This document shows positions 41,801 to 64,000 of a DNA stretch of 64,000 nt, in pieces. Within the stretch, counting starts at the first letter, position 1, and the number at the start of each line of letters is the position of its first letter. This DNA comes from an uncultured Chthonomonas sp. (GTDB lineage Bacteria; Armatimonadota; Chthonomonadetes; Chthonomonadales; Chthonomonadaceae): NCBI GenBank assembly GCA_903859705.1, contig CAIONQ010000099.1, positions 1-64,000 on the forward strand, read 5' to 3'. Made by a program: the position numbers and the translations under genes. The notes below the pieces were generated by a model. The model was not told the origin of the DNA and searched no databases. It saw nothing but the letters and a program-made list of their open reading frames with translations.

Positions 41801-42075
41801 TTACAGCTGGCTGCACGCGTTTGAGGCCCGTATTGATGACCGCCGCAGCTATGGTAATTGGCATGTTACCGATGGCACTTGGGATTGGCGAAGGCGGTGA
41901 ACAGAATGCCCCCCTGGGTAGGGCCGTTGTTGGCGGCTTGATGTTGGCTACCGTTTCTACACTGTTGTTTGTTCCAGTTATCTACTCTCTGCTCAGGAAG
42001 CAAGCCCCACACTTTGCAGCGGAAGAGGGAGAAGAGAAGCCGCATTCTACACCCCATACCGAGGCAATTAGATAG
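38857..42075 (+). CDS. RND-family efflux permease (HAE-type), system 1
   Basis: A 1072-residue inner-membrane transporter. It has the standard layout: TM1 at about residues 16-34, a large periplasmic loop, TM2-6, a second loop and TM7-12. The TM4 proton-relay segment reads GILVDNAIVVIEN, so it keeps the first Asp of the AcrB D407-D408 pair but has Asn at the second. TM10-11 end with 'PLIIITALPGALCGIVWML' and a C-terminal acidic tail. It exports compounds from the periplasm using proton import; the substrate is unpredictable, but the sequence is more like drug exporters than CusA-type metal exporters. It is followed by adaptor and outer-membrane genes with gaps of 21 and -4 bp. Confidence 0.92.
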   Translation: MSIVASALRRPYTYIVATLLVLILGIATVVSTPTDVFPNIDIPVASVIWSYGGASPDDMEKRIVTIAERSYTTSVNDIQHIESQSMPGVSVIKVFFQPGAKVEGAVAQLTATSQTLLKSLPPGITPPLIIQFNASSVPIIQLGVSSKTMSEQQLYDYAQNFVRVQLATVQGASTPSPYGGKPRQIMVDLNPAAMQARGLSAYDVSAAINAQNLILPAGTAKMGDREYTVSINSSPGLLDALNNLPVKQINGATIFVRDVAQVHDGFAVQTNIVNRDGKRACLLTILKSGSASTLSVVQRVKDLLPTIRATLPQGVELDVMSDQSLFVRASVNGVVREAVIAALLTAVMILLFLGSWRSTLIVAVSIPLSILTSIIVLGATGQTLNVMTLGGLALAVGILVDNAIVVIENIYRNLGHGKRLRTAILDGAEQIASPSLVATMAICVVFVPILFLTGAAGSLFKPLAMAVIYAMIASYLLSRTVVPVVVNFLLKSEVTLHQHGHETSAHAGPQGDIFWRIHQKFNRYFDIGLEWYRHRLHAAMERRGMVLACYGLLCVASGALLPFIGRDFFPAVDSGSFRLHVRAPAGTRVEKTEQLFAQVEAQIRQRVPSSQLELILDNIGLPVGGVNFAYSTTGSIGPSDGEILVALKEEHRPTAELIDELRIELPKRFPQLTFFFQPADITTQILNFGLPAPVDVQVVGRSERNFDTAREIARKLAQIPGAADVHIHQVMDVPELHVSVDRDRALEMGLTQRDVANSVLVNLSGSGQAFPNYWLDPKNGVSYLVAVQTPQYRLNSVPTLDAISFAGTSARPPQQLGSLATVMRQTSAEVINHYNVQPTFDIYANVANRDLGGVSTDINRVLAEMQHRLPRGTSVTVRGQVESMNSSFAGLGAGLVFSILFIYLLMVVNYQSLVDPLIIITALPGALCGIVWMLFVTHTVFSVPALMGAIMCVGVSTANSILVVTFANDRRLEGDTALTAAITAGCTRLRPVLMTAAAMVIGMLPMALGIGEGGEQNAPLGRAVVGGLMLATVSTLLFVPVIYSLLRKQAPHFAAEEGEEKPHSTPHTEAIR

Positions 42076-42096
42076 TAAATTCTGAGGAAAAAACAC

Positions 42097-45293: not shown

Positions 45294-45328
45294 CCGACTA
45301 TATTCCCGCCCGGAATCGAATGATGTGG

Positions 45329-45366
45329 AGGCTCTGGCTGCTTGCGGCACAGAGCCTTTCTCATTT
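45329..45366 (+). terminator. Likely terminator between the two efflux systems
   Basis: aggctctg (45329-45336) pairs with cagagcct (45350-45357) and is followed by TTTCTCATTT. The tail is imperfect, so read-through into the second system is possible. Confidence 0.65.
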
Positions 45367-45408
45367 ATAGCGAATTCCATATATTTTATAGCTATCCGCC
45401 AGATCATG

Positions 45409-45440
45409 TTGAAAATATATGAAAATAGTGGTATTACTAT
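45409..45440 (+). promoter_or_regulatory. Candidate sigma-70 promoter for efflux system 2
   Basis: TTGAAA (45409-45414) is followed after 17 bases by TATTAC (45432-45437), in an AT-rich stretch 61 bp before the adaptor gene. A short inverted repeat, atagt (45425-45429) with actat (45436-45440), overlaps the -10 and could be an operator. Confidence 0.4.
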
Positions 45441-45497
45441 ATTGTTATTCACCATTCAGACAGGTGATGTCAGCTTCATCCATTACAGAGGCCAGTT

Positions 45498-47060
45498 ATG
45501 AACAAACTATTCAAAAGAACAGGATCTTCGTTATCTTCAGAGAGTGGCACGCTCGGGATTTGGAAAGTGGCTCCCATTCTTGGAGCCGGGCTGGGCGTGG
45601 TTATGGGTGCTTACGCGCTTCATGGTGCGCGGAGTGCTGGCGGCCAGTATGGCGCAGCCCAATCCCAGCCAAGGTCCGAGAGTTCCGCTTCCTCCATAGA
45701 AGCAGCTACAGAAACGGTTTCCCTTACAGCAACCCCAATCATTACAGAGGCCACCGGTACTATTCGAGCTGAGTTTGAAGCGCCGCTTGCCGCAAGAGTG
45801 ATGGCACGTGTTGTGCGCGTTGCCGTGCGCGAAGGCGAGCATGTAAAGAAGGGGCAGACGCTGATCTGGCTGGATGCCCTGGATCTGGATGCATCTGTAA
45901 GGCAGGCATCCGCAGGGGTAAATGCAGCCAGCGCCGGGTATGGCGCAGCTCAAACTGCGGCTCATATGGAGAGTGCACTGAGCGCAGCACGTATCGATCA
46001 GGCTCATTCCAAAGCAGCCGAAGCCGAGGCTGGCCTGCAGGCAGCAAAGGCAAGATTAGACATGGTACTTGCTGGCCCACGCAAACAGGAGCGAGAACAG
46101 GCCACGCTTGCAGTAGCTCAGGCGAAGGCGGCACTGAACCTGGCGGAAGCCAACCAGAAAAGAATGGATGAGCTATTTAAAGAGGGGGCAATCTCCGCGC
46201 AGCAACTGGATCAGTACCGAACTGCTGCTGAGGCCACACGAGCACAGTACCAGTCTTCACTCCAGGCCAGAAACATGGTTGATGAGGGCAGCCGTACAGA
46301 AGAAGTTCGTGCCGCCCGCCAGGCCCTTCGGCAGGCGCAGGCCGGTGTGCAAGAGGCAGCATCCGGGATACGAACAGCAGAAGCTGCAGCAATGCAAACC
46401 GCATTGCGACAGCAGGAGGCACTGGGTGCAAAGGCCCAGATTAGCTTATCAAAAGCCGGGCTGGATACCGCACGCATCGCACGAACCTATGCAACCATCA
46501 CGGCTCCCTTTGATGGTGTAGTAACTCGCAGAAATGCCGACCCCGGTGCCATGGCATCGCCAGGAATGCCGTTGCTTACAATAGATGGTGGGAAGATGAG
46601 GCTTGAGGCCATCGTCCCAGAATCGGTTCTTCCCAGCGCCAGCAAAGGGCAAATAGCTAGCGTTGTACTATCTCAGGCTGGCATTGAAAAGTCCATTCCC
46701 ACAACTGTTTCCGAGGTTACACCCCAGGGCGATCCAGCAAGCCACACCTTTACGGTAAAGCTCAACCTTCCCGAAGGCCAGCATGCTATATCAGGAATGT
46801 TTGGCAAGGCGCTATTTACAACGGCTTTTCGCAACAACTTAACGGTTCCGAATGCTGCCCTGTTGGAGCGCGAAGGGCTGCGTTTTGTGTATACCGTGGA
46901 CGCTTCCGGGATAGCCCACTTGAGAATGGTAACCGTTGGCAACAGTGCCGCTGGCAGAACAACGGTGCTTTCTGGCCTGAACCCTGGCGAAAAGATTGTT
47001 GCTGCCGGAGGCAGCGTCGCCACCGAAGGGGCCGTTATTCGGCCCGTATCTGGCAAATAG
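45498..47060 (+). CDS. Membrane-fusion (HlyD/AcrA-like) adaptor, system 2
   Basis: A 520-residue protein with one N-terminal membrane segment (WKVAPILGAGLGVVMGAYAL) and the lipoyl halves 'RVMARVVRVAVREGEHVKKGQTLIWLD' and 'ARTYATITAPFDGVVTRRNADPGAMAS'. A long Ala/Gln-rich helical hairpin lies between them (about residues 140-325). The beta-barrel part contains 'AISGMFGKALFTTAFRNNLTVPNAAL'. It acts with the permease encoded 19 bp downstream. The hairpin is similar in length to that of system 1, consistent with docking to the same TolC-type channel. Confidence 0.9.
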   Translation: MNKLFKRTGSSLSSESGTLGIWKVAPILGAGLGVVMGAYALHGARSAGGQYGAAQSQPRSESSASSIEAATETVSLTATPIITEATGTIRAEFEAPLAARVMARVVRVAVREGEHVKKGQTLIWLDALDLDASVRQASAGVNAASAGYGAAQTAAHMESALSAARIDQAHSKAAEAEAGLQAAKARLDMVLAGPRKQEREQATLAVAQAKAALNLAEANQKRMDELFKEGAISAQQLDQYRTAAEATRAQYQSSLQARNMVDEGSRTEEVRAARQALRQAQAGVQEAASGIRTAEAAAMQTALRQQEALGAKAQISLSKAGLDTARIARTYATITAPFDGVVTRRNADPGAMASPGMPLLTIDGGKMRLEAIVPESVLPSASKGQIASVVLSQAGIEKSIPTTVSEVTPQGDPASHTFTVKLNLPEGQHAISGMFGKALFTTAFRNNLTVPNAALLEREGLRFVYTVDASGIAHLRMVTVGNSAAGRTTVLSGLNPGEKIVAAGGSVATEGAVIRPVSGK

Positions 47061-47079
47061 ATAGAACAGGCAGCTTTCC

Positions 47080-50000
47080 ATGCAAAAGAACACTGTTGAA
47101 ACAGGTGGGGCGGAACACATAGGTATTGCGGGCCGCATTGCGGCCGCATTCGTAAACTCGAAACTTACGCCTCTTATAATAATTGCGTCACTTCTGTTGG
47201 GCTTCATGGCGGTAATGAAAACACCTCGCGAAGAAGAGCCCCAGATTATCGTGCCCATGATGGATGTTATGGTGGGCATGCCCGGTGCCACTTCAAAAGA
47301 GGTAGAGCAGCGTGTAACAGTTCCCATGGAGAAATTGCTGTGGGAAATACCTGGCGTTGAGTATGTGTACACAACTTCCAGCCCCGGGCAAGCCATAGCC
47401 ATTGTGCGCTTCTTTGTTGGGCAGGATCAGGAGGCTGCGCAGGTTCGCCTGCGAGAGAAGCTGCAATCTCACTTTGATATTATTCCGCCGGGTGCAACCC
47501 AGCCAATCATCAAACCACGCTCTATCGATGACGTGCCTATCCTTGCCCTTACGCTACACAGCGCACACTATGGTGCTGCAGCATTGAGGCAGATTGCATC
47601 TCGCGTGGAGACTGCCGTAAAGCAGATAGATAACGTTTCTGAAACAACGCTTATTGGTGGGCGGCGTAGAGAGATAACTGTTTCTCTGAATAAAGAGAAG
47701 ATGGCTGGCATGGGAGTTAGCCCGGAAGGTGTGGCGCATGCGGTGCAGGTTTCCAACCAGCGTGGCGGTGCAGGCAGTTTCTCAAATAATAATCAAGATA
47801 CAGTAATAAAAACCGGCCAGTTTATCGTTACCGCCGAGCAGGCTGCCAACCTGGTAATTGCTGGCCCTGCGGGCCGGCCCGTATACTTGCGGGATGTAGC
47901 CGATGTAACCGATGGGGCGGAAGAGCTCTCACAGTACGTGCGTTTTGGCTACGGGCCAGCCGCCGGCAAAGAAGAAGCAGCAAGGGCGGTTGAACCTGCC
48001 GTAACAATATCTGTTGCCAAGCGGCCCGGCAAAAATGCGGTAGACATTGCGAAGGCCGTGCTTACAAAGGTAGATGGGCTGAAGAACGCGCTGATACCGG
48101 CCGATGTGACGGTAACGGTTACACGCAATTACGGCGAAACCGCGGCAGAAAAGTCTGGCGAGTTGCTGTACCACATGATGATTGCTGTGGTATCCGTAAC
48201 CTTGCTGATAGCGTTCACTCTTGGGCGCAAAGAGTCTATGGTGGTGGCCATCGCCATCCCGGTAACGCTGGCGCTTACCCTGCTTGTGTTCTACCTGTAT
48301 GGCTATACGCTCAACCGCATTACGCTTTTCGCGCTGATATTCTCAATTGGCATTCTGGTAGATGATGCGATTGTGGTTGTTGAAAACATTGTACGGCACT
48401 ACCGAATGCCGGATGGAGAGCGCAAACCGCCGTTGCAGGCCGCAATCCATGCCGTGGATGAGGTAGGCAACCCAACAATTCTGGCAACATTCGCCGTTAT
48501 AGCCGCAATTCTGCCTATGGCATTTGTTGGCGGGCTCATGGGCCCCTATATGCGCCCCATCCCAGTTGGCGCATCGGCCGCAATGCTCTTCTCACTGCTG
48601 ATTGCGTTTATCGTTACCCCCTGGGCTGCTTTCCGACTGCTAAAAAGCGAGTACGGCAAGAATCACGGCAAAGGGCATGGTGGTGGGCACGAGGCACAGG
48701 ATGATGCCATGACCCGGCTATACCGGAAGATCATGACTCCCCTGCTGGAATCTGGCAAGGTGCGGGCGTTCTTCTTTGTTGGTGTTATAGCCCTGCTACT
48801 GGGCGCCGTTTCGCTGATTGGCCTGAAAAAGGTAACAGTGAAGATGCTTCCGTTCGACAACAAGAACGAGTTTCAGATAATAGTAGATATGCCCACCGGT
48901 TACACGCTGGAGCAAACGGCGGCTGCAACCAGTGCACTCGGCGAGTATGTGGCGCATATACCGGAAGTGGAAAACTACCAGATGGTGGTTGGGGCAGCCA
49001 GCCCATACAATTTTAATGGACTGGTGCGCCACTACTATCTGCGCAACCAACCCAATCAGGCAGATATCCAGGTGAATCTGGTTGGTAAGAATGAACGCAA
49101 AGCACAGAGCCACGACATCGCAAAGCGAATCCGCCCGGATATCGAGCGCATCGCCAGGCAATGGGGAATTCGCGTAAAGATCTCAGAAGTACCGCCAGGC
49201 CCACCGGTGCTGCAAACGCTGGTTGCCGAAATCTACGGCCCAACCGGGGATGAACGAACTCGCATTGCTGGCCAGGTGAAGCAGGTTTTCGAAACCACAC
49301 AGGGCGTATCGGATGTGGACTGGTATGTGGATGACGATCAGCCAACCACGCAGTTCACTGTGGATACCGAGAAGGCCGCACGCACCGGCGTGGATGTGCA
49401 GAGCGTAAACCGAACACTTTCAATCGCGCTATCTGGCCTGCAGGTTGGGTTTGCGCACGATGAAACGGCACGAGAAGATGTGCCTATAAGGGTACGACTT
49501 CCACGTTCCGAGAGATCCAGTGACGCTGCGCTAACTTCCCTTTATGTAACAGCCGCCGATGGCAGAACGGTTCCGTTGCGTGAACTGGTGAAGCCAGTAC
49601 AGATTGCAACAGAAAAATCTATCTACCACAAAAATCTGCTGCCCGTAGTTTATGTAACGGGCGATGTATCTGGCATCCAGGAGAGCCCGGTTTACGCCAT
49701 CTTCTCAATGAATAGTAAGATAGCAAACCTCAAGCTCCCGGCCGGTTATCAGCTGAAGGTTCTGAACATCGCCATGCCGGAGAATACAGCAAAGCCGGTA
49801 ATGAAGTGGGACGGCGAGTGGCACATAACGCTGGAGGTTTTCCGTGATCTCGGCATTGCATTTGGTGCCGTACTTATCCTGATTTACATTCTGGTGGTAG
49901 CCTGGTTCCAGTCGTTCAAAACTCCGCTAGTTATCATGGCCCCCATCCCACTCACTCTGGTGGGGATTTTGCCAGCCCATGCCATGATGGGAGCATTTTT

Positions 50001-50325
50001 CACAGCTACTTCCATGATCGGCTTTATAGCCGGTGCCGGAATCATTGTGAGAAACTCCATTATTCTGGTGGACTTCATAGAGCTGAGGCTGCGCGAGGGA
50101 ATGCCGCTGGAACAGGCTGTTATAGATGCGGGAGCCACCCGTTTCCGCCCGATGCTTCTGACTGCTGCCGCAGTTATTGTTGGATCCTTTGTGATCCTCT
50201 TCGATCCCATTTTCCAGGGACTGGCCATTGCGTTGATGGCTGGCGAGATCGCCTCTACCCTGCTTTCCCGCCTGGCGGTACCTGTGCTGTACTTCCTGGT
50301 GCGCCGAAGCGAAGGGGCAAAGTAA
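47080..50325 (+). CDS. RND-family efflux permease, system 2
   Basis: A 1081-residue transporter from a subfamily different from system 1. It has an N-terminal extension before TM1 ([28 protein letters not shown]), a TM4 relay with the full Asp pair ([18 protein letters not shown]), and a C-terminal half with '[21 protein letters not shown]' and '[24 protein letters not shown]'. The 'TPREEEPQI' motif is common in RND permeases found next to DUF2892 genes, as here. The substrate is unknown. It lies 19 bp after its adaptor and 51 bp before DUF2892. Confidence 0.92.
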
Positions 50326-51527: not shown

Positions 51528-52481
51528 TTATTTTGCCGCATGGGCTTCTGCCATGAGGGTATCCAGCTCTTCTTTTGTGGGTGTAGGGGTTTCAATTCCA
51601 TTCTTTGGAATATCCAATCCAGAAACCCACGCCACTCCGTTGAGAAGCAGCTTTCGGAAGTCGTCGTTTTGTAGATTGTAATAGTTGTGGAAGCCGGTAA
51701 ACCCGAATCCGCGGCCATTCCTGCGCTGATACGCCCAGGCAAGGTGCTGGGGCTCTTTGGCCTGAACTTCCTTCATTACATCGGCATTGCCGCCACGTTC
51801 TGTGGGCATATTATCCACGTACGTAAGCGAGCTAACTGGTGGAACTGCAGAGATGAGCGGGGTAACGCCCATCATGTTCTCCTGAAACCGCATGTGGTAG
51901 TACCACTCATCCCTTATCGAGAATGGATGAACCCCATTCAGCACAGGATGGTTGCCAACAAGCAGTGGTTCAGGGGTCCACCAGGGGTTAACCGACCAGA
52001 ATGTTTCGAAATAACCGCCCATCCAGCTCAGGTAGTTGCTACCCTGATCTCCCTTGTTTACCTCCACACCGAAGTGGATGGCTCCGAAGCCTGCACCTTT
52101 TGCAACGGCTGCCTTGATGTTGGCATCCTCTGCGGCAGGCCCACCGTGGTTGAGCAGTACAATTACTGCGCTAACGCCGGTAAGATCTTTAGGCCACTGT
52201 TTTTCATCATAAACAACGGCGTAAGCGTTTTTGTAGCGGGCATTGATGGTGCGGGCAAAGTAGAGGCTGCCAGCAAAAAACTCATGATTGCCGCGCGCGC
52301 CATGATCGGCACGGGAGGCTATGATTACGATTTTATGCACCTTAGCAGGCGCGGCCTTTTGAGCCTCGTAGTTGTACGGATCCTTTTTACCGCCTGGCTT
52401 TTGTGCCCAGGAATGTGAGCCGATGCAGAGGATAGAAGCGGCCAGTGAGAGCGTAATACGCAGTGCGGACAGCTGTGTCAT
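51528..52481 (-). CDS. Secreted ThuA-domain protein
   Basis: A 317-residue protein with a signal peptide (LRITLSLAASILCIGSHSWAQ). It has a ThuA fold of glutamine amidotransferase-like topology: VHKIVIIASRADHGARGNHEFFAG, VSAVIVLLNHGG, GFGAIHFGVEV, 'NHPVLNGVHPFSIRDEWYYHMRF', and the late 'GRGFGFTGFHNYYNLQNDDFRKLLLNGVAWV'. ThuA proteins are linked to carbohydrate metabolism and are frequent in planctomycete-type secretomes; the reaction is unsettled. A decayed copy of its N-terminal part lies on the far side of the NRPS gene (60439-60632). Confidence 0.88.
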   Translation of the reverse strand: MTQLSALRITLSLAASILCIGSHSWAQKPGGKKDPYNYEAQKAAPAKVHKIVIIASRADHGARGNHEFFAGSLYFARTINARYKNAYAVVYDEKQWPKDLTGVSAVIVLLNHGGPAAEDANIKAAVAKGAGFGAIHFGVEVNKGDQGSNYLSWMGGYFETFWSVNPWWTPEPLLVGNHPVLNGVHPFSIRDEWYYHMRFQENMMGVTPLISAVPPVSSLTYVDNMPTERGGNADVMKEVQAKEPQHLAWAYQRRNGRGFGFTGFHNYYNLQNDDFRKLLLNGVAWVSGLDIPKNGIETPTPTKEELDTLMAEAHAAK

Positions 52482-52694: not shown

Positions 52695-55600
52695 TTACCT
52701 TGAATTTAAACGTGCGTTCGTTGCTTGAGTTTCCGGGCGCGAAACCATGGTTTCGATCATATCTGCGATATCTTTTGCACGCTCAGAGGCCAGAAGATCG
52801 GCATGCTCGCCGCGTATAAACCGGCAGTTAACAGTAGTTGCTTCACTCCAACTGAGCCGCCGATGCAGATATCCAACGGTACTGGAACCAGTACTCACTA
52901 TGTGATGAACTAACCCTGCGTACTCCGGGCAATCGTACTTCAATACCGCCTCATGATTGGCTCGGTGCAGCTTTTGAAGGTGTGGTAACGATGAGACTAC
53001 ATTGTGATTAACTCGAGATTGAACAGCATCGGCTACTATCGTGATCCCATATTTCAACTTTGAGGCTGTGCCCTGCAGCCGTGCAATACGTGACCAGTGG
53101 TATTCAGCAACCTTTATCAGCTGGTAGATGCGGGAGCCAGCAATATCATCATCAGGCGACCAGTGCTTACCCGTGCGATACTCCGTATCTATCATGATGA
53201 GCGCGGGTTGTGGCCTGCCCATGGCCGTCATCTGCCGGGCCATTTCATAAGCTATTATCCCGCCAAGGGTGCATTGCCCAATCAGCACCACAGGGCCAAA
53301 TGGAGCCGTGGCGAGCACTTCTGCGAGGTACTCTTTCGCCATTTGCTCCACGGTTTCTACAGGGGCAACATCCGGGTCCATGCCAGCGCTTTGCAGGCCA
53401 TAGAAGGGCCTATCCTTATTCAGGCAGGCAGCCAGAGCCCGCGCATCCAGCAAGCCACCGCCCATGCCATGCACAAAAAACATGGGTGGGAGTTTGCCTT
53501 CCGGTTTGATTGGTACCAGGCATCGCGTCGGAACATCAACGCGAGTTGTTCGCATTACGGCACACATAGATCGAACTGTGGGTGCCTTAAAGAGCACATC
53601 CAGTCTTAGACGAATGCCTGTTTCCGTTTCGATTGCTGCAAGCAGCTTAACCGCCATCAGCGAGTGTCCACCCAATTCAAAGAAATCTTCTTCAGGCTTA
53701 ACCGACTTGCGCAAATAGCGAGCCCAGATTTCACCAACCTGCATTTCAAGCGGATCGGCGGCCTCTGTAAGCGGCTCTTCTTTAACTGCGGTGGCTGCTG
53801 CAGCCATTGCGCGCAACGCTTTGCGGTCTGTTTTCGCATTGGGAGTAAGCGGCAATTCAGGCAGTTCTATGAACTCTGCAGGAACCATATATGCGGGTAG
53901 CATGGCCATTACATGCTCGCGCAATATGCGGTACATCCCGGCTTTGCCGAAGCCTGCCGCAGGCTCAAGTACCACAAATGCTGCCAGATATGCATCTACG
54001 CCTTCGCCTGCCAGTACCACCGCGCTTTGCATGATAAATGGATGGTTTACAAGTGCAGCCTCAACATCTCCCGTTTCAATACGAAAGCCCCGCAGCTTTA
54101 CCTGGCCATCTGCACGGCCCAGGCACTGTATATATCCATCTCCCACCCATCGGGCGAGATCTCCCGACCGGTACACGCGATGCCCACCAACGGCAGGCGC
54201 ATTTACAAACCGGTCTGCGGTTTGCTCGGGAAGGTTAACATAACCTATAGCCAGCCCGTTGCCACCGATACACAGCTCACCAATTCGCCCAGGTGGCAGT
54301 GGCATGCGTGCCTCATCCAGGATGTACAGCTGTGTGTTATCCATCGGCTTACCAATTAAGATTGGCCCACTCGCGTTTTCTACTTTGTGAATTGTGGAGT
54401 AGATGGTGGTTTCGGTTGGGCCGTACATGTTCCAGAGGCCGCCGACACAGGTCAAAAGCTCAGCCACCAGGTCGATCGGCAGCGGCTCGCCGCCAGAAAT
54501 TGCCTTAATGTTACTGCCGCCCTGCCAACCGGATGCCAGCAAAACCCTCCACCCTGCCGGAGTTGCCTGCACCAGGCATATATTGTGCTTCTGGATTAGA
54601 GCGGCGATGGCATCGCCGTGCATTGCGTCCGTTGTGCTGGCAATAACTACGGTTCCACCCGTAATAAGTGGCAGATAAAGCTCCAGGCACGAGATATCAA
54701 AACTCAGCGTGGTGGCTGCAAGTATCTTTTCTCCGGCCGATAACCCCGGTGCTTTACTTACCGATTGCAGTAAGTTGTACAGTGCACGGTGCGGTGTTGC
54801 CACGCCCTTGGGCTGGCCTGTAGAGCCGGATGTATAAAGCACATAGGCACAGCACTGCTGAGCAACAGGTGGCAAAGTAACTGGCTGGCACTCTTTCAGC
54901 TCTTCGATGAATAGGAGCTTACAGTTCGGTGCAATTTCTGCGGCCCTGGCGGCAAGCTCCTTGCTGGTAACTATGCAGGCAATGGTTCCGTTTCCTACAA
55001 TCTGCTTCAGACGGTCTGCCGGATAACCAGGATCCAGAGGTACATACCCCGCGCCAGCGCGCATTATCCCAAGCGTACTTACAAGCATATCCAGGCTGCG
55101 CTCAACAAAAACGCCAACGCACTTCAGCTCAGCCTTTTGCTCTATAAACGGATAGATACCTGATGCAGCGTTGATGCTTAGCGTCTGTAGTTCTGTATAG
55201 GTAAGCTGGCTATCTGCAAAGATTGCTGCCGGAAAAGAAGGATACTGGCTGCATATGCCATCGAACGCAGTGATAACGGTGCCACTCTCTGCGAGAGGAA
55301 CTGCCGTCGCGTTCCAGCGCTCAAACATCAATGCGCGTTGATCCTTAGTAAGCAAGTTGAGATTGCGTAAATTGCTATCAGGATCTTCTGTTGCCGAAAT
55401 TGCGAGCATGTGAAAGGCGCTATCCAGCGTCTGAATGGTACTTTCGTCATACAGCGCAGTATCGTATTCCCACTCGCATCGAAGAGTGCCGTTGTCCGGG
55501 GTAAGGCGCAAATTGATGTCAAACATAGAGGTGCCGTTTGTAAGCACCAACTCCTCTGCCTTCAGTACGGCACTGCACGGGAGTGGGGTTGCCGGGTTAT

Positions 55601-58600
55601 CAAAAACCAACGACAGATCGAACAGGGGAGTTCGGTTTTGTGAGCGCGGTGGATTAAGCGCATGTAATACGCTCTCAAAGGGAACATCCTGGTTCTGCAA
55701 TGCCTCCAGGGTTAGCTTTCTTGCCTCGCCAACTAAACCTCGGAAGCTGTATGCAGAACCTATTGGCATGCGTAGAACTACGGAGTTAACAAACATTCCC
55801 ACCATGCATTGATACTCTGCGCGTGTTCTGCCGGAAGTGACCACGCCAAACACGGTTTCGGCAGGATACTGGTTGCTCAACCGTGCTATCAGCAAGGAAT
55901 ACAAACTTGCCGATACAGAGAAAAGAGTTGTATCCTCCTGGCGCGCAAGGGCACACAACGCGTTGTATACGGGTGCTGGAAGTACAGATCGAAACGTTGT
56001 GCCAGAAAAAACTCTGTGTTCCGGCCGGGGCCGATCTCCTGTAATCTCAGATGCCGTGCATCCCTGCAGCTTATTTACCCAGTAGGCAAGCTGTTCTTTA
56101 TACTCTGTAGAACTCTCATTTTTGTGCTCTTGCACCGCATACTCGAAATAACTAATTGGCAGCGGCTCTAAACTTGGAGCGTTTCCGTTAGCTAATTCAT
56201 AATATGCCGAAAGCAGCTCTCGCAGCATAAGATCCAACGACCAGCCATCGGTAACAGCATGGTGGATTGTGATTGAAAGCAAGCTTTCTGTTTTTGAACG
56301 GCGAAGAAGCACGGATCTAACGAGAGGACCTTGTTCCGGACTAAAAGGCTTGCACCCCTCTGCCTGTGCCGCTGCAAGCATCTCTTCTTCAGAGTTTACT
56401 GTTCTCACTTCTATGGGCGGCAGTGTATGCAGAGCCTTGAGGATTACTGCTCCATCCTCTTCAGATCGTGCAAAGTAGCAACGCAATGCCTCGTGCCTCT
56501 CGGCAATTATCTGATAGGCTTGCTGCAGTTCATCGATTTTTAGGATGCCAGTTAAACGAATATTGAGGAGGGTATTTAGGAATGCCGAACCAGACTGCAG
56601 CATATCCATTAGATAAAAGCGCAGTTGCCCGGGTGCAGGGAGGATCTGCTGGTTTGTATCAGGCTGTTGTGATACTTGTAAACTTGCAGGCTCAAGCTTA
56701 TCCATTAACCGAGCCAACGCAGCCATTGTTGGACACTTGAGGAAATCCCGTAATGATGGAGCAATGCCAAACTCTGCTTTAACGGAAGCGAGCAAAAGTA
56801 CTGCGGAAAGAGAGGAACCGCCCATGGCAAAAAAGCTATCGTTTTCGGTAGCATCCGTAGCCCAATCACCAAGTACCCTCTGCATTATTTGCAATAGCCT
56901 GTGCTTTGTATCACTTATTCCGGATATAGCTGGTGTACTGCTTGTTGAAGGGGCAGCAGTGTTTACCTTGCCAGAGCCTTCAGCAGATACACTGCCGGCT
57001 GTTGCAAGCTCACGCAGCATCTTGCGGTCTACTTTGGAATTTGGTGTGAGGGGCAACCGCGGCAGCGAAATGTACCGCGCTGGAATCATATAAACAGGCA
57101 GTTGTATCAATAAGTGCTCACTTAGTGAGCGGCGTATACCCTGTGTACCGAAATCCGCGTTATCCTCAAGTACCAGGAATGCTGCCAGATACGCTTCGAG
57201 GCCTTCGCCAGCGAGAACCACTGCGGCGTGCTTGATGAATGGGTGGCCCGCAATTGCTGCCTCAACATCCCCCGTTTCAATGCGGTAGCCCCTCAGTTTT
57301 ACCTGACCATCTGCGCGTCCCAGGCAAAGAACATTGCCATCCCCAACCCAACGCGCGAGGTCTCCAGATCGGTACAGACGCTGCCCACCAACAGATGGCA
57401 CGTTTACAAACCTATCCGATGTTTGATTGGGCAGATTAACATACCCAATGGCCATGCCATCGCCACCGATCCACAACTCTCCAACGCGGCCAGGCGGCAC
57501 GGGCATGCGGGCCTCATCCAGAATGTACAGCCGTGTATTATCCATCGGCTTACCAATCAGGATGGGCAGATCGGCGCTCTCCACTCTGAAAATGGTGGTG
57601 TAACCCGTTTCGGTTGGTCCATACATATTCCAGATGTCACCAACACAATTTAGAAGCCTGGCTGCAAGATCGGGAGGCAATGGTTCCCCACTTGAAACCG
57701 CCTTAATATTGCTGCCACCCTCCCAGCCGGAAGCCAGCAGAATCCGCCAGCCTGCTGGAGTTGCCTGAACCAGCCGTATGTTGTGCTTCTGTATTAAGGC
57801 AGCCATAGCTGCGCCATCCATAGCAGCGTCTCTGGTGGCAATAACTACTGTTCCACCTGTAAATAGTGGAAGATACAGCTCCAGGCAGGACATATCGAAG
57901 CTGAGAGTGGTGGTTGCAAGGGATTTCTCACCGGCCTTTAAGCCTGGCGCTTTGCTTACCGATTGCAGAAAGTTGAAGAGGGCACGATGCGGTATTGCCA
58001 CACCCTTTGGCCTGCCAGTGGAGCCGGATGTATAAAGCACATAGGCACAGGCCTCCTGAGCAACCTCCGGCAGTGCAACAGGCAGGCACTGTTTCAGCTC
58101 ATCGATAAAAAGGAGTTTGCAGTTCGGTGCTATTTCTGCAGCCTTTGCGGCAAGTTCCTTACTGGTAACTATGCAGGTAAAGGCACCATCCCCCACGATC
58201 TGCTTCAAACGATCTGCGGGATAGTCTGGATCCAGCGGTACATAGCCAGCTCCGGCGCGCATAACGCTGAGTGTGCTTACCAGCATTTCCAGGCTACGCT
58301 CAACATACACACCTACTGCTTTGAGTTCGGCATTGTGATTAATGAATGGGTAGATGCCGGAGGCAGCATTAACACTCAGTGTCTGAAGTTCAGAGTAGTT
58401 GAGCTGGCTATCTGCAAAGATTGCGGCGGCATGGGAAGGAAATTGGCTGCATATGCTATCGAACGCAGTAATTACAGAGGCATTATCAGAGATAGGAACG
58501 GCTGTATCATTCCATTGCTCGAACATCAAGGAACGTTGTTCCCGGGTAAGCAGATTGAGCGTACGGATATCACTGCACGTGTCTTCTACTGCGGAAGCTG

Positions 58601-60158
58601 CCAGCATCTTAAACGCGCTATCCAGCATCTGGATTGTGGCCGCACTATACAGCTCTGTATCATATTCCCACTCGCATTGAAGCGTGCCATTATCCGGAGT
58701 AAGGCGCAAAGTAATATCAAGCCTGGAGGTGCCCGTGGTTATTGGCAGTTTTTCAGCTGTGAGCGTTGAAGTGCCCGGGATTGACGATGTTGGATTATCA
58801 AAAATCAACATTAAGTTGAACAGGGGGTTTCGGTTCAACGAACCGGGTGGGTTGATTGTACTTACCACTCTCTCAAAGGGTACGTCCTGGTTCTGCAGTG
58901 CCTCCACAGTTCTTTCACCGGCATGCCGAAGCAAATCGGCAAAAGTCGGGTTATTCCTTAAGTCAAGACGCATAACTACAGAATTATTGAAGATGCCAAT
59001 CAGCGGATGGAGATCTGTATCAGCTCTTCCAAATGTGGCAGTGCCAAACACCACATCGGCAGGATACTCATCTGCAAAGCGCGCGCATAACACACCGAAA
59101 AGCGCAGCCATTACTGAGTATGTGGTGGCTTTGTGAGAGCGCGCCAGCTGGCATAGTTCGAAGTATAGTTCTGACCCAATTACAGACACATGCACATCGC
59201 CACAATATTTTCGGGCAGCCGGCCTCGGCCAATCTCCTGCTATTTCTGAGCCCGTTGCGCCCTGCAGGTGCTTATCCCAATACTGCAGCTGGCTTAGATG
59301 CTCTCTCTCGGCAGATTGGTTATTTAGCTGCTGAGCGTATTGTGTGTAGGTAATGGGCAGGTTCTCAAAAGCTGGAGACCCGCCCTCCACAATCGCATGA
59401 TAAGCTGTGAATAGCTCCGTAATGAGCAGATCTAAAGACCATCCATCGACTATTGCATGGCTCATTGTTAGCGATAAAACGTGGTTTGCAGCGGAGGTTG
59501 AGATGAGTGCCGCCCGGATTAACGGACCTTCTGCAAGTTGAAACGGAGTACGAGCCAGCTTCTGGGCCTCTTCCAGCATATCCAAATCGGTTTCAACAGT
59601 AACCTGAGCAATTGCCGGCAAATCTTCCAGTACCTTAAGCCGTACTGGCCCATGCACATCTGCTGGCACAAATACATATCGCAGGGTTTCATGCCGGTGC
59701 GCAACTGCCTTGTACGCCCGCTGTAACGCATCCCTGGTAAGGGCGCCGGTGAGGCGGATATTGGTGCAAACATTGTAAAGAGCGGAACCAGGCATCAACT
59801 GCTCCGCTATATAACACCTCATCTGCCCGGGCGTTGGAAGCAAATGCGTACTGTTATCAGCCAGTTGGTCCGTTTCTGAAGTTGTTGGCTGAATTGCATC
59901 CAACAATTGTGCCAGCGCGGAAACGGTGGGGCATTTAAGAAACTCGCTTAAGGTAGGCGCGGAGCCAAACTCGGCTTTTACCAGTGCCAGCATGCCTGCA
60001 GCAGAGAGTGACGATCCACCAAGCGCAAAAAAACTGGGGTTTGCCGTGGCATCGCATGCCCAATCGCCCAGCAGATGCTGCCAGATGTGCATCAGCTTAC
60101 TCTCGGTTATCGTTAATGTAAGGTCGTTTATGGTTGGTATTGCTATTTCAGAACGCAT
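52695..60158 (-). CDS. Non-ribosomal peptide synthetase, T-C-A-T-C-A-T-TE
   Basis: A 2487-residue enzyme preceded by GAGGA 7 bases before the ATG. Domains in order: carrier T1 (GGSS, Ser50); condensation C1 about 105-530 (SHAIVDG at 233-239, first His replaced by Ser, catalytic His234 kept); adenylation A1 about 555-1050 (YTSGSTGRPKG, GPTETGY); T2 (Ser1116); C2 about 1165-1590 (HHAVTDG at 1299-1305); A2 about 1620-2120 (YTSGSTGQPKG); T3 (GGHS, Ser2166); thioesterase about 2215-2487. Aligning to GrsA by eye gives pocket residues D-M-L-G-V-S-M-Y-T for A1 and D-I-L-G-I-G-M-I-Y for A2; both are tentative. T1 has no cis adenylation domain, so its acyl or aminoacyl group must come from elsewhere. 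The thioesterase elbow reads GQCTLGG with no Ser; Asp2324 and His2452 complete a plausible triad. The product should be a chain of three units. No PPTase, MbtH or transporter is nearby. Confidence 0.93.
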   Translation of the reverse strand: MRSEIAIPTINDLTLTITESKLMHIWQHLLGDWACDATANPSFFALGGSSLSAAGMLALVKAEFGSAPTLSEFLKCPTVSALAQLLDAIQPTTSETDQLADNSTHLLPTPGQMRCYIAEQLMPGSALYNVCTNIRLTGALTRDALQRAYKAVAHRHETLRYVFVPADVHGPVRLKVLEDLPAIAQVTVETDLDMLEEAQKLARTPFQLAEGPLIRAALISTSAANHVLSLTMSHAIVDGWSLDLLITELFTAYHAIVEGGSPAFENLPITYTQYAQQLNNQSAEREHLSQLQYWDKHLQGATGSEIAGDWPRPAARKYCGDVHVSVIGSELYFELCQLARSHKATTYSVMAALFGVLCARFADEYPADVVFGTATFGRADTDLHPLIGIFNNSVVMRLDLRNNPTFADLLRHAGERTVEALQNQDVPFERVVSTINPPGSLNRNPLFNLMLIFDNPTSSIPGTSTLTAEKLPITTGTSRLDITLRLTPDNGTLQCEWEYDTELYSAATIQMLDSAFKMLAASAVEDTCSDIRTLNLLTREQRSLMFEQWNDTAVPISDNASVITAFDSICSQFPSHAAAIFADSQLNYSELQTLSVNAASGIYPFINHNAELKAVGVYVERSLEMLVSTLSVMRAGAGYVPLDPDYPADRLKQIVGDGAFTCIVTSKELAAKAAEIAPNCKLLFIDELKQCLPVALPEVAQEACAYVLYTSGSTGRPKGVAIPHRALFNFLQSVSKAPGLKAGEKSLATTTLSFDMSCLELYLPLFTGGTVVIATRDAAMDGAAMAALIQKHNIRLVQATPAGWRILLASGWEGGSNIKAVSSGEPLPPDLAARLLNCVGDIWNMYGPTETGYTTIFRVESADLPILIGKPMDNTRLYILDEARMPVPPGRVGELWIGGDGMAIGYVNLPNQTSDRFVNVPSVGGQRLYRSGDLARWVGDGNVLCLGRADGQVKLRGYRIETGDVEAAIAGHPFIKHAAVVLAGEGLEAYLAAFLVLEDNADFGTQGIRRSLSEHLLIQLPVYMIPARYISLPRLPLTPNSKVDRKMLRELATAGSVSAEGSGKVNTAAPSTSSTPAISGISDTKHRLLQIMQRVLGDWATDATENDSFFAMGGSSLSAVLLLASVKAEFGIAPSLRDFLKCPTMAALARLMDKLEPASLQVSQQPDTNQQILPAPGQLRFYLMDMLQSGSAFLNTLLNIRLTGILKIDELQQAYQIIAERHEALRCYFARSEEDGAVILKALHTLPPIEVRTVNSEEEMLAAAQAEGCKPFSPEQGPLVRSVLLRRSKTESLLSITIHHAVTDGWSLDLMLRELLSAYYELANGNAPSLEPLPISYFEYAVQEHKNESSTEYKEQLAYWVNKLQGCTASEITGDRPRPEHRVFSGTTFRSVLPAPVYNALCALARQEDTTLFSVSASLYSLLIARLSNQYPAETVFGVVTSGRTRAEYQCMVGMFVNSVVLRMPIGSAYSFRGLVGEARKLTLEALQNQDVPFESVLHALNPPRSQNRTPLFDLSLVFDNPATPLPCSAVLKAEELVLTNGTSMFDINLRLTPDNGTLRCEWEYDTALYDESTIQTLDSAFHMLAISATEDPDSNLRNLNLLTKDQRALMFERWNATAVPLAESGTVITAFDGICSQYPSFPAAIFADSQLTYTELQTLSINAASGIYPFIEQKAELKCVGVFVERSLDMLVSTLGIMRAGAGYVPLDPGYPADRLKQIVGNGTIACIVTSKELAARAAEIAPNCKLLFIEELKECQPVTLPPVAQQCCAYVLYTSGSTGQPKGVATPHRALYNLLQSVSKAPGLSAGEKILAATTLSFDISCLELYLPLITGGTVVIASTTDAMHGDAIAALIQKHNICLVQATPAGWRVLLASGWQGGSNIKAISGGEPLPIDLVAELLTCVGGLWNMYGPTETTIYSTIHKVENASGPILIGKPMDNTQLYILDEARMPLPPGRIGELCIGGNGLAIGYVNLPEQTADRFVNAPAVGGHRVYRSGDLARWVGDGYIQCLGRADGQVKLRGFRIETGDVEAALVNHPFIMQSAVVLAGEGVDAYLAAFVVLEPAAGFGKAGMYRILREHVMAMLPAYMVPAEFIELPELPLTPNAKTDRKALRAMAAAATAVKEEPLTEAADPLEMQVGEIWARYLRKSVKPEEDFFELGGHSLMAVKLLAAIETETGIRLRLDVLFKAPTVRSMCAVMRTTRVDVPTRCLVPIKPEGKLPPMFFVHGMGGGLLDARALAACLNKDRPFYGLQSAGMDPDVAPVETVEQMAKEYLAEVLATAPFGPVVLIGQCTLGGIIAYEMARQMTAMGRPQPALIMIDTEYRTGKHWSPDDDIAGSRIYQLIKVAEYHWSRIARLQGTASKLKYGITIVADAVQSRVNHNVVSSLPHLQKLHRANHEAVLKYDCPEYAGLVHHIVSTGSSTVGYLHRRLSWSEATTVNCRFIRGEHADLLASERAKDIADMIETMVSRPETQATNARLNSR

Positions 60159-60791
60159 TCAATTCCTCATGCTGGTCAGCTCTTGCATCTTCGAGTTGCC
60201 ATTGGCGGTACACAGAAAAAGGGCACTGTAAAGTATCGAGGGAGAACAGTTGGTATCGGCAACAGTTGTGCCGAATGGATACATGGTAAGAGAACTACCC
60301 CAAGAACTGACTGCTACACTTGCTTTGAAGTACCAGGGATTTCGATACGGCTATAGGATAACCACATTAACGTGCTTAGCTTTTTCAGCCCTGATTGTGA
60401 CATCGTCTGCGGCTGGTTCACAACGATTTAGCAGAAAATTATTGTGCTAACTCCGGTAAGACTTTCAATCGCTGGTTTTCAGAATAAACAACAGCTCTGG
60501 CGCTTTTGTATCGGGCATTGTTGGTGCAGGCAAAGTAGAGGCTTTCCGCAAACAAACCTCATGTTTGTTGGGCTCCCACGATCAGCAGGGGAGGCGGTAG
60601 TTGCGACTATATGTAAGGTATGGATGCACGCTTTTTTGGCATTACAACTGTACGGAAGCTAAGAGTAGTGCCTTGACTTCAACATCTAAATAAAACCGAG
60701 TATGTGCGGCGATTTAACAACACACACTACTTGTGCGGAGGCCGCATGGCTGCTTTGAGCAGCAGTTGGCCCCCGCTTCTGCTTCAAATCA
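60159..60791. other. Intergenic region upstream of the NRPS containing a decayed thuA piece
   Basis: About 630 bp without an intact gene. The part next to the NRPS (60159-60438) should hold its promoter, though I see no confident -35/-10 pair. The part from 60439 to 60632 is recognisably homologous to thuA (separate entry). The rest up to the amidohydrolase stop shows nothing recognisable. Confidence 0.6.
60439..60632 (-). pseudogene. Degraded thuA fragment
   Basis: Read on the minus strand, this stretch encodes FAESLYFACTNNARYKSARA followed by VVYSENQ, which lines up with FAGSLYFARTINARYKNAYA and VVYDEKQ of the intact ThuA protein encoded at 51528-52481. Upstream of that, a frame-shifted piece reads VATTASPADRG against VIIASRADHG. 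It lacks a start, the rest of the protein and a single frame, so it is a remnant. Nucleotide similarity is also visible directly (for example cgggcattgttggtgcaggc against cgggcattgatggtgcgggc). Confidence 0.8.
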
Positions 60792-61745
60792 TTATGATAG
60801 TTGATAGTAGGCCTTTGCATTATCGTGAAATAGCTTGCGTTTGTCCGCATCGGGCATATCGCGCACTATCCATTGCAGGGTATCTACCCAGCCCTTAAAG
60901 CTGGAGGTGTTGTTGCATACTGGCCAATCGCCGCCGAACATTACGCGGTTTGTGCCAAAGCTATGGATGCAATGGTGAACGATATGGTCCAGCTCTTTAC
61001 CTGCGTTCCATTCTGGCTTCACTGTTTTGATAACGCCTGAGATCTTGCAAACCACATTCTTGCGCTTTCCAAGCTCGGTAATATCTGCTTCCCACTGTTT
61101 TTGATGCGGGTTTCTGGCAGAGGCGTTGCCACAATGATCGAGGATAAAGCGGGTATCCGGGCAGAGATCCGCGAGTTGCGCAGCATCTGCGAGCTCTTCT
61201 GGGCGGATGCAGATATCATAACTGAAGCCAAGTTCGCCGAGCAGCAGCATATTTTCTATATATCGTGGTGTTAGGCATAGGCCACGTGGGGCACCCGGCA
61301 CCTGCAGAACCTGGCGAAAGCCCTTGATGTATTTGCTGCCCTGAAAGCCACGCACATAGGCTTTGAACCCGGGCTCGCCTGGCCGGCAGGATACCACTCC
61401 GGCAGCCATACGGGTGTTGTGCGATTTGCAGGTTTGTTCCACCCATTGTGCCTCTTCCATCTGCTGATGGGGAGCAACATCTACCTCCATGTATACCGTT
61501 TTTACAACATTAAGGCCACGTGTGGCTTTGTAATAATCTGCCATGGTGGTGCTGTGGTTGAGCTTCGGTTCGCCAGCAAGCCACGGGGGACGAAACTTAC
61601 GAAAATCCCACAGGTGCTGGTGGGTATCGATAATCGGGAAAGAGCGGTCGCCTACAGCAGCGGCATGCTGCTGGTTTGCCAGCACGCCCGCCGCGCTGGT
61701 AGCAGCCATAGTAAGAACTTGCCTTCGGGAAACAGTATCAGCCAT
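60792..61745 (-). CDS. Tat-exported amidohydrolase 2 family protein, L-fuconolactonase-like
   Basis: A protein of 317 residues from the ATG at 61745, where AGGAGAG lies upstream; a longer frame to 61787 lacks this. A twin-arginine signal (SRRQVLTMAATSAAG) precedes the barrel. Amidohydrolase-2 marks: FPIIDTHQHLWDF near the start, MEVDVAP, 'DTRFILDHCGN', 'KISGVI' and 'NRVMFGGDWPVCN', the last supplying the catalytic Asp. Related enzymes open sugar-acid lactones such as L-fucono-1,5-lactone in L-fucose oxidation, fitting the GH95 fucosidase elsewhere in the window; other amidohydrolase activities cannot be excluded. Export of this type is unusual for a fucose catabolic enzyme. Confidence 0.82.
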   Translation of the reverse strand: MADTVSRRQVLTMAATSAAGVLANQQHAAAVGDRSFPIIDTHQHLWDFRKFRPPWLAGEPKLNHSTTMADYYKATRGLNVVKTVYMEVDVAPHQQMEEAQWVEQTCKSHNTRMAAGVVSCRPGEPGFKAYVRGFQGSKYIKGFRQVLQVPGAPRGLCLTPRYIENMLLLGELGFSYDICIRPEELADAAQLADLCPDTRFILDHCGNASARNPHQKQWEADITELGKRKNVVCKISGVIKTVKPEWNAGKELDHIVHHCIHSFGTNRVMFGGDWPVCNNTSSFKGWVDTLQWIVRDMPDADKRKLFHDNAKAYYQLS

Positions 61746-62668
61746 TGAACCTGCTCTCCTGCAGTTAAAGAATGAGTTGCGATGCAAGATTTCGGCAACA
61801 GGATAGGTTAGTCCTGCGGAGTTGCCAGTTGTTCCTTTGTTAGTACCCTGGTATTTAAGTTAGGATCTTTACAGATGGTGTTTTGAGGTTGTGCGGGCTT
61901 GCGCGGTTCTGTTTTCTGGCTGGTTTCCTGCGTAAGATTTCTCTATCGTGTGGCCAGGTCCCCTCCTCTAAGGGAGCCTCATGTCGACCCTCTTAGGATC
62001 TCCCGTGCAAATGAACAAGGGCCTTTACCTCTTCCCACCGTCTCGGCGCATTTTTGCTTATGAATAGTGACTGACCAAATGCGTCGCGAAGAAGTTGGGT
62101 TTGTACCTTTCGGCGCTGCTATACACTCCTCGCAGGCTCGGAGTTACAGCGCGGGTGTACTGTGCTGTTTTGCCAGTGTTTTAGCGGCGGATCGGGATAC
62201 GGAGGTTTGCGTTTGCTGGCGCTGCTATACACTCCTCGCAGGCTCGGAGTTACAGCGCGGGTGTACTGTGCTGTTTTGCCAGTGTTTTAGCGGCGGATCG
62301 CCGCTTGTGCCCTCAGTTTGCTCGGGCAGATGAACACGGCTTTTGCCAGGACCCTTGCATGAGGAAAATCTCAATGCAGGGACGAATGGGACCGTGGAGA
62401 CTTATCTGGCTTTCCTGTTTGGTGAGGGTCGGCAGGAGCTGCAGGCTGGCTGGAAATAGGTACTGGATTGCAGATGAATGAAACGGGGGATTTGGCCGCA
62501 GGGCTGCTTTGCTGCATCCATTGGGGGATGCGGAGGTGCTGGGCGCTCTCGAGTTTGCTATTCCACGTTTAAACTAACAGATATGCTTTGGTTGCTCGGG
62601 AGTGGGAGGTTATCAGTTTTGAGGTAGTGCGCTGACCCGTTATGGTTATTTCTACGTGAATGATTAGG
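61746..62668. other. Long intergenic region with direct repeats
   Basis: About 920 bp without a convincing gene. The only clear structure is an 83-bp perfect direct repeat (62111-62299). Small open frames such as 62067-62333 run through the repeat, are Cys/Ser-rich and have no family resemblance. Promoters for the amidohydrolase presumably lie near 61746-61850. I do not recognise a tRNA or other RNA gene here. Confidence 0.6.
62111..62299. repeat. Two perfect 83-bp direct repeats, 106-bp period
   Basis: 62111-62193 and 62217-62299 are identical over 83 bases, separated by 23 bases that differ. Each unit contains a small internal inverted repeat (ctcc...ggag around the 'tcgcaggctc' loop). Perfect identity in a non-coding context suggests a recent duplication or a conserved functional unit such as a tandem small RNA or protein-binding array. 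Confidence 0.85.
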
Positions 62669-63631
62669 TTAGCTGTAATTACGTACTGCTGGCTCAAGGA
62701 TAGTTACTGTCCTTGAAGTTGCGTCCATCCGCACTCGGCAGTTTAGCGGCAGCGTTAGAGGCGATTCGATGTGACCGAATGGAAACCCTGTGATTACAGG
62801 TTTGCCTAAACCACCAAGGTGGTCATTAATGATCTGGTCTATGGTTAATTCCTGGTTGGTATCGTCTGGATCATTTGTATCGGCCAGATTGCCTATGAGG
62901 AAACCGTTTGCAGATTGCAGGAGCCCTGCATGGCCAAGATGCGTAAGCATTCGGTCTACACGCCAGAGAGGTTCTCCCGTATCCTCCAATGCCATTATCC
63001 CAGGCCCTGGACGGGCTGCATAAGAGGTGCCAATACTGCTATCAACCAGGCATAGAGTCCCGCCGGTCAATACCCCATCTACTACGCCCGGAATAATTGT
63101 GACCCCGAGTGCGGCGCTATTGAGAGTTTCGTATGGTTCTGGATTTGAGATTAGACGCCAAAGCGCTTGAAAGCATGTGTCACTGCTGCATGTTGCCAGG
63201 TCACTCGCCACCATCGGGCCATAAAAGGTGGGCCAGCCTGCCGCATGCTGAATTGCCAGGTGTAACACAGTTACATCACTGTAACCTACAAACACCTTTG
63301 GATGGTGAGATATGGCCATGAGATCAAGGTGTTTAAGAATGCGGGCCGATCCTGATCCTCCTCTGGCGCAAAACACAGCCTTTATTTCCGGGTTCAGAAA
63401 TGCGGCCATAAGGTCGGCGGCTCGATCAGCGTCTGTTCCTGCTAGATGCCCATAAATATCAAGTATATGGGGGCCCAGCCACACGCGAAGCCCCTTATTT
63501 TCCAGAGCGGCAATGCCGTAATCTAATGCGTTGCGATCAACTCTCCCTGCGGGCGCTACGACGGCTACTTTATCGCCGGGAGCTATTGCGTGTGGTAGTA
63601 CCCGGTCGATTTGTGAATACAGATCGCACAT
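62669..63631 (-). CDS. S66-family LD-carboxypeptidase
   Basis: A 320-residue protein with GGAG 8 bases before the ATG and no signal peptide. The nucleophile Ser118 is in the GYSD motif after 'FCARGGSGSARIL'. Catalytic Glu216 is in MALEDTGEPLWRVDRML, and His287 is in GFPFGHIESPLTLP. All three members of the family's Ser-Glu-His triad are therefore present. These cytoplasmic enzymes trim the terminal D-alanine from muropeptides during murein recycling; relatives include the microcin C immunity protein MccF, which is less likely without a microcin locus. The gene is the second of a possible minus-strand pair with the partial gene at the right edge. Confidence 0.88.
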   Translation of the reverse strand: MCDLYSQIDRVLPHAIAPGDKVAVVAPAGRVDRNALDYGIAALENKGLRVWLGPHILDIYGHLAGTDADRAADLMAAFLNPEIKAVFCARGGSGSARILKHLDLMAISHHPKVFVGYSDVTVLHLAIQHAAGWPTFYGPMVASDLATCSSDTCFQALWRLISNPEPYETLNSAALGVTIIPGVVDGVLTGGTLCLVDSSIGTSYAARPGPGIMALEDTGEPLWRVDRMLTHLGHAGLLQSANGFLIGNLADTNDPDDTNQELTIDQIINDHLGGLGKPVITGFPFGHIESPLTLPLNCRVRMDATSRTVTILEPAVRNYS

Positions 63632-63725: not shown

Positions 63726-64000
63726 CTAGTGGTCAGCTTTTGGTGCATCTGGTGAGATCACTTTTGCATTCAAGGCGGCAAGTGCCTTGTCCAGTTGGAT
63801 GCTACGTTGGGCCGACCAATCAGTTTTCAGGCGTAGCACTAATCGCTGCCCGCCATCAATAAGTTCAGCTTGCTTAGCACCGATTGCTTTTGCAAGATCC
63901 TGGAGCTGCTCCGGGCTCTTACCGGTAAGCCCCTCAACTGGCAACATTATTGTACGGAGATCTACAATAAGTTTTTTCAACCCACTTTCTGGTTGATCTG
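63726..64000 (-). CDS. C-terminal part of an unknown protein (5' end beyond window)
   Basis: The minus-strand frame is open from the right edge to the stop at 63726-63728. A TTG at 63980 could serve as a start, but upstream codons (DQPESG) stay in frame to the edge, so a longer protein is likely. The visible 90 residues read 'LKKLIVDLRTIMLPVEGLTGKSPEQLQDLAKAIGAKQAELIDGGQRLVLRLKTDW' onward, a mixed alpha/beta domain with no motif I recognise. The protein ends in PKADH. It lies 94 bp upstream of the LD-carboxypeptidase. Confidence 0.55.
   Translation of the reverse strand, partial: DQPESGLKKLIVDLRTIMLPVEGLTGKSPEQLQDLAKAIGAKQAELIDGGQRLVLRLKTDWSAQRSIQLDKALAALNAKVISPDAPKADH

Follow-up and report, generated by a model that had tools for sequence, protein, structure and literature searches.

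Results

The synthetase locus and its surroundings

The window analysed here comprises the first 64.0 kb of contig C99, from an assembly of an uncultured Chthonomonas sp. (179 contigs, 6.24 Mb, 95.7% complete), the contig itself running on to position 74257 (74.3 kb). Within it lies an NRPS gene, N1 (52695-60158, minus strand), which starts with ATG and encodes a protein of 2487 residues with the domain order T-C-A-T-C-A-T-TE, i.e. carrier (T), condensation (C), adenylation (A) and thioesterase (TE) domains. The preliminary description of this DNA regarded N1 as a single, isolated synthetase; its apparent isolation is an effect of the window edge, a paralogous synthetase, N2 (L007/L008; C99:65228-72364, minus strand), being located 5 kb upstream on the same strand, just outside the window. 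N2 has the order C-A-T-C-A-T-TE and, counted from its first start codon, a TTG, is 2366 residues long.

The genes between N1 and N2 are all on the strand of the two synthetases and encode an Amidohydro_2 (lactonase-like) protein with a TAT-like leader (60792-61787), a Peptidase S66 protein of the LD-carboxypeptidase/MccF superfamily (62669-63631), and a secreted protein of ~240 residues without a Pfam match, the 3' part of whose gene (63726-64000) is in the window and which extends to contig position 64448. Several of the intergenic gaps are ~600-900 bp in length, which argues against one simple operon. S66 matches are present in 12 of 17 genomes of the family, one in each except for this genome, which has two (the other copy being on C105); the additional copy makes it worth testing whether the peptidase may have a dedicated role, in self-protection or in product trimming. 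The gap before the S66 gene contains two identical 83-bp direct repeats (62112-62194 and 62218-62300, 106 bp apart), a 76% related copy of which is present just downstream of the N2 stop (C99:65139-65200); the element is a dispersed non-coding repeat.

Directly downstream of N1 there is an intact gene for a secreted ThuA-family protein (51528-52481, minus strand), and the gap upstream of N1 contains a degenerate ThuA fragment (60388-60613, minus strand) with a stop and frame damage, the DNA of which is 75% identical to part of the intact gene. N1 is thus flanked on both sides by ThuA sequences in the same orientation. On the opposite strand, 2.4 kb downstream of N1, is an RND efflux cluster (38857-50325) made up of a permease (38857-42075), an adaptor (42097-43824), an outer-membrane factor (43821-45293), a second adaptor (45498-47060) and a second permease (47080-50325). 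The initial statement that there is no transporter nearby is therefore incorrect, the link of this cluster to the NRPSs being one of position only. A PPTase, likewise described as absent nearby, exists elsewhere in the genome, as an Sfp-type frame of 241 residues on C90.

Domain architecture and start of N1

Matches over the Pfam cut-off were obtained in N1 for three PP-binding, two Condensation, two AMP-binding, two AMP-binding_C and one Thioesterase domain; these, and the locally built profiles from which domain order and limits were taken, bear out the order that had been read directly. The N-terminal carrier, T1 (residues 19-86; 59901-60104), has Ser50 within the motif FFALGGSSL, beginning at residue 43, and is followed by C1 (residues 105-543; 58530-59846) and A1 (residues 570-1068; 56955-58451). 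T2 (residues 1086-1152; 56703-56903) has Ser1116 in FFAMGGSSL, beginning at 1109, and precedes C2 (residues 1171-1609; 55332-56648; motif HHAVTDG) and A2 (residues 1636-2135; 53754-55253). T3 (residues 2138-2202; 53553-53747), with Ser2166 in FFELGGHSL, beginning at 2159, leads into the terminal thioesterase (residues 2224-2469; 52752-53489), all on the minus strand. The three carrier serines are exactly those first assigned, each in an intact motif. The other core motifs, including A3, A8, the A10 lysine, GGxS and the HHxxxDG-type motif, are likewise intact, the exception being C1, in which the last reads SHAIVDG. The A, T and C core motifs, along with the terminal TE triad and the Sfp-type PPTase in the genome, identify N1 as a modular NRPS.

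There is an in-frame TGA immediately 5' of the N1 ATG, and GAGG, a plausible ribosome site, is 6 bases upstream of it. Using tblastn with all three NRPSs of the genome, we observed no significant A-domain remnant in the 633-bp gap upstream of N1, and a frame-shifted or broken A domain 5' of T1 was accordingly rejected. The claim that T1 is not preceded by a loading A domain is thus upheld, and an upstream frame encoding an A domain fused to T1 is not present in this gap in the present assembly. Among 126 closed-start, C-containing ORFs, N1 alone has a T domain in the first 150 residues, a rarity that is indicative only, since the set was chosen by similarity to N1. T1 therefore has no A domain of its own where one would normally be and must, if it works, be charged by something else.

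Relationship between N1 and N2

The two modules of N1 are similar to one another, with identities of 63% for T1/T2, 48% for C1/C2 and 75% for A1/A2. Between N1 and N2 the values are 45/55% for T, 37-38% for C, 45-46% for A and 50% for TE domains, such that T1, C2, A2, T2 and TE of N2 all have 37-55% identity to their N1 counterparts, whereas the leading C and A domains of N2 are distant (20-28%). One clade of the tree built from 361 C domains (support 0.999) is made up of N1-C1, N1-C2 and N2-C2, each of which follows a T domain. From these identities and the C-domain tree, T1-C1-A1 is recognised as an internal duplicate of T2-C2-A2; on sequence grounds, N1 and N2 share a [T-C-A]-T-TE core, N1 lacking the leading C-A of N2 and having the T-C-A unit doubled. 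The simplest history would be that an N2-like gene lost its leading C-A and gained a second T-C-A unit, though the order of these events is one that we infer. Identity between the N1 modules is ~45% over most of the C domain and ~80% over the A core (~75-83% for A1 and A2), which suggests that the A region was later exchanged or homogenised, followed by a change of the pocket in which A1 lost a pocket-loop residue. The leading C and A domains of N2 are highly diverged, with KIDG instead of KIRG at A8 and a C-domain score half of normal.

T1 and C1

Ser50 is invariant in an alignment of 33 T-C sequences. The AF2 model of T1-C1 has a mean pLDDT of 85, lower in T1, and shows T1 in the canonical four-helix fold, in which Ser50 begins the second helix; it matches PCP-C didomains, among them those of DhbF, TycC5-6 and LgrA, with CmnI further down the list. 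Between T1 and T2, the proportion of sites that differ is 0.23 for nonsynonymous and 0.86 for synonymous sites; the latter are saturated, from which it follows that T1 was constrained, under purifying selection, for most of its history.

The closest solved relatives of C1 are elongation C domains, including those of the DhbF cross-module construct, teixobactin synthetase and TycC6, whereas the starter C domain of CDA gives a very weak score. By these comparisons C1 is classed as an elongation-type C domain, and neither a starter-type nor a cyclisation domain follows T1 in N1; an aminoacyl starter is thus likelier than a fatty or aryl one. In SHAIVDG the first histidine is replaced by serine, with the second (catalytic) histidine and the aspartate retained. 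Serine at this position was found in 3 of the 361 C domains, and, given this rarity, C1 may be weakened.

Adenylation pockets and the thioesterase

Pocket residues were read from an alignment, with position numbering that rests on the motif anchors of GrsA. The pocket of N1-A1, DMLQVSM-YK, is one residue short in the loop that follows A5, a deletion present in only 2 of 88 sampled domains, N1-A1 included, and gives no substrate call. That of N1-A2 is DILQIGMIYK; those of N2 are DVRHYALMAK (A1) and DILQLGLIWK (A2); and those of the third NRPS of the genome, N3, are DVWHYSMIEK (A1) and DILQLGMIWK (A2). By the published code, DILQLG(L/M)IW resembles a glycine signature and DVWH-S a serine one, and we read the N1-A2 pocket as glycine-like.

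The thioesterases of both N1 and N2 have a cysteine in a GxCTxGG elbow, a histidine and an aspartate at the common place. The N1 triad, Cys2296 (in GQCTLGG), Asp2324 and His2452, was assigned from an alignment and an AF2 model (pLDDT 81), in which Cys2296 opens the helix that follows the strand, as expected of a nucleophile.

Candidates for charging T1

The preliminary description proposed that T1 is charged in trans by an acyl-AMP ligase, a free A domain or another synthetase. Thirteen AMP-binding matches were found in the genome, six of which are the A domains of the three NRPSs; the others, assigned by reading their sequences, are acyl-CoA/acetyl-CoA ligases, one FAAL-ACP-acyltransferase and two A-T-membrane proteins. 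The search for a stand-alone gene thus gave no free NRPS A domain in this 96%-complete genome, and at the locus there is no AMP-binding gene besides N1 and N2, hence no linked acyl- or aryl-AMP ligase. Of the options proposed, another synthetase is retained, and the other two lack a good candidate among the 13 matches. The FAAL protein (L022, C44:22357-23511; about 1011 residues) combines FAAL, ACP and PlsC-like acyltransferase parts. L015 and L017 (on C50 and C170; ~1350 residues) each have an amino-acid adenylation domain, a carrier and a membrane/left-handed-helix part, and are reminiscent of Pls-like enzymes. N3, on C77 (A-T-C-A-T-TE), was considered as an upstream partner joined to C99; we infer no such join, because N3 is complete in itself, with its own stop (C77:1750) and another gene before the contig end, and because C99 continues past N2 with other genes.

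Of 353 sampled carriers, 324 have Gln, Arg or Lys five residues after the carrier serine; neither T1 nor T2 does, a sequence feature that weakly suggests a common A-domain partner. T1 resembles most closely T2, the carrier that A1 usually serves, and departs, as T2 does, from the usual residues at this position; on these grounds N1-A1 is favoured as the loader, followed by N2-A1.

Discussion

The overall results are consistent with N1 and N2 being paralogous terminal NRPSs of a small locus, with T1 charged by an A domain of the pair, most likely N1-A1 and otherwise the starter A domain of N2, a proposal that we judge to have an even chance of being correct. It takes T1, from the above evidence, to be a working carrier, which would be converted to its holo form by the Sfp-type PPTase and would receive an amino acid from an A domain that it has in common with another carrier. 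N1-A1 is the first choice for this role, given the 63% identity of its usual partner, T2, to T1; the alternative would be the N2 starter A domain, whose partner, N2-T1, holds the equivalent position. C1 would then join the T1 residue to that on T2, C2 would extend to the residue on T3, and the cysteine thioesterase would release a short peptide. N1-A1 would have to reach T1 in cis or between molecules, and joint action of N1 and N2 is not implied, each ending in its own TE. Several points stand against this proposal: no orthologue that would show T1 conserved as such was found in 291 genomes of the phylum, C1 has the rare SHxxxDG in place of HHxxxDG, and the likeness of T1 and T2 may stem from a common downstream C domain and from duplication rather than from a common A partner. 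A further possibility, speculative and to our minds improbable, is that N1 and N2 share one loading step, an A domain of one synthetase charging the first carrier of both. The products would be a pair of related short peptides that begin with the same starter and are released by unusual GxCTxGG cysteine TEs, the extra S66 peptidase giving self-protection; if true, this would be an example, in bacteria, of two complete synthetases that depend on a single A domain for initiation.

The main rival, a serious one with an appreciable minority share of the probability, is that the synthetase was truncated at its 5' end and that T1, perhaps together with C1, is what was left behind, with N1 starting at A1-T2 and making a dipeptide via C2, A2, T3 and the TE, T1 remaining uncharged. 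The presence in N2 of a C-A before the equivalent T, missing from N1, the degenerate ThuA fragment upstream, a sign of rearrangement at this point, and the unusual C1 motif are all as expected for such a remnant, but retention of Ser50, the fold and the reading frame, the strong synonymous excess relative to T2, the second histidine and the aspartate of C1, and a GAGG consistent with a used start are not. The three-unit product with an unusual starter that was at first predicted is not established, C1 being of elongation type and a dipeptide being possible should T1 be idle.

Loading of T1 by an off-locus enzyme, for example the FAAL-ACP-acyltransferase on C44 or one of the A-T-membrane proteins on C50 and C170, the starter being an acyl group, an aryl group or an amino acid, was the main reading of the earlier description. 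Such adenylating proteins are indeed encoded in the genome, and aryl carrier-first and ACP-first NRPSs are known in general; however, the proteins in question are all fused to their own carriers and unlinked to the locus, C1 sits with elongation rather than starter C domains, and T1 most resembles T2, a peptidyl carrier, so that we consider this doubtful. It is very improbable that N1 is an assembly artefact, with its 5' part wrongly joined and a longer gene, having an A domain ahead of T1, in the organism. Although the genome is in 179 contigs, N1 lies inside one, with the in-frame stop and plausible ribosome site directly before its ATG and with ThuA-related DNA of the same neighbourhood in the upstream gap; moreover, no orphan NRPS A domain that might be the missing part is present among the AMP-binding matches of the genome.

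No N1 orthologue in which conservation of Ser50 might be followed was found at any level searched, from genus, family and class up to 291 genomes of the phylum; a scan of genome contigs gave only general NRPSs with about 27-38% identity to N1. In the sister genome, compared as a possible empty site, ThuA is present, at 68%, without the other neighbours of the N1 locus. A literature search for NRPSs in this bacterial group gave surveys only. The locus points to a product from a group of bacteria in which condensation domains were seen in only 7 of 31 members of the class. A gene pair sharing a T-C-A core, with the loading part in one and not in the other, is a clean system for studying recognition between carrier and A domains, and is useful as well for seeing how an NRPS loses its initiation module; if T1 is idle, N1 is an ordinary truncated NRPS.

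Comparison with known systems

HMWP2 and PchE are examples of NRPSs with an aryl carrier domain at the start, loaded from elsewhere, after which a heterocyclisation domain comes next, and a salicylate ligase gene is in the cluster; FAAL-started lipopeptides provide known ACP-first systems. Carrier-first organisation is common to HMWP2, PchE and N1, but the C domain that follows in N1 is of the elongation type, and no ligase of this kind accompanies N1. DhbF of bacillibactin biosynthesis has the domain order of N2, C-A-T-C-A-T-TE, and its cross-module fragment (5u89) is the best structural match of N1 T1-C1. DhbF, however, starts with C-A whereas N1 starts with T1, no gene for an aryl carrier or aryl ligase was seen at the locus, and the TEs of N1 and N2 differ in using cysteine as the nucleophile. 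Cysteine nucleophiles are found in the SulM and ObiF TEs, which make four-membered rings and have a moved aspartate (PMC11298585, PMC6668435). N1 shares with these the replacement of the usual serine by cysteine, but its Asp2324 is where AB3403 and EntF also have theirs, at the common position and not at the shifted one, and its GxCTxGG elbow is unlike that of SulM and ObiF; strained-ring chemistry of this type was rejected for N1 on account of the aspartate.

The closest parallel is with CmnI/VioI, module 3 of the capreomycin/viomycin synthetases, which consists of T-C only; the A-less, T-first CmnI is charged in trans by CmnA-A1 (PMC12400406). Fungal siderophore NRPSs are cited as charging A-less modules in the same way, although experimental proof of trans-acting A domains on A-less bacterial modules is still scarce (PMC12400406). 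Like CmnI/VioI, N1 begins with a T and then a C domain and has no A domain for that T, i.e. it has the CmnI-type architecture, and its T1-C1 model matches the CmnI structure (9uay). It lies outside the CmnI sequence group, the members of which share >50% identity (PMC12400406), C1 being only ~23% identical to CmnI in the fold match. CmnI ends after T-C, whereas two full modules and a TE follow in N1, and CmnA-A1 works with CmnN, whereas no MbtH protein was detected in this genome; for N1, trans charging is predicted by analogy. N1 is an NRPS that starts in an unusual way, belongs to a locus with two synthetases and most resembles the known trans-charged, A-less modules; the gene pair that it forms with N2 is of a natural-product kind that is unusual yet, in broad terms, familiar.
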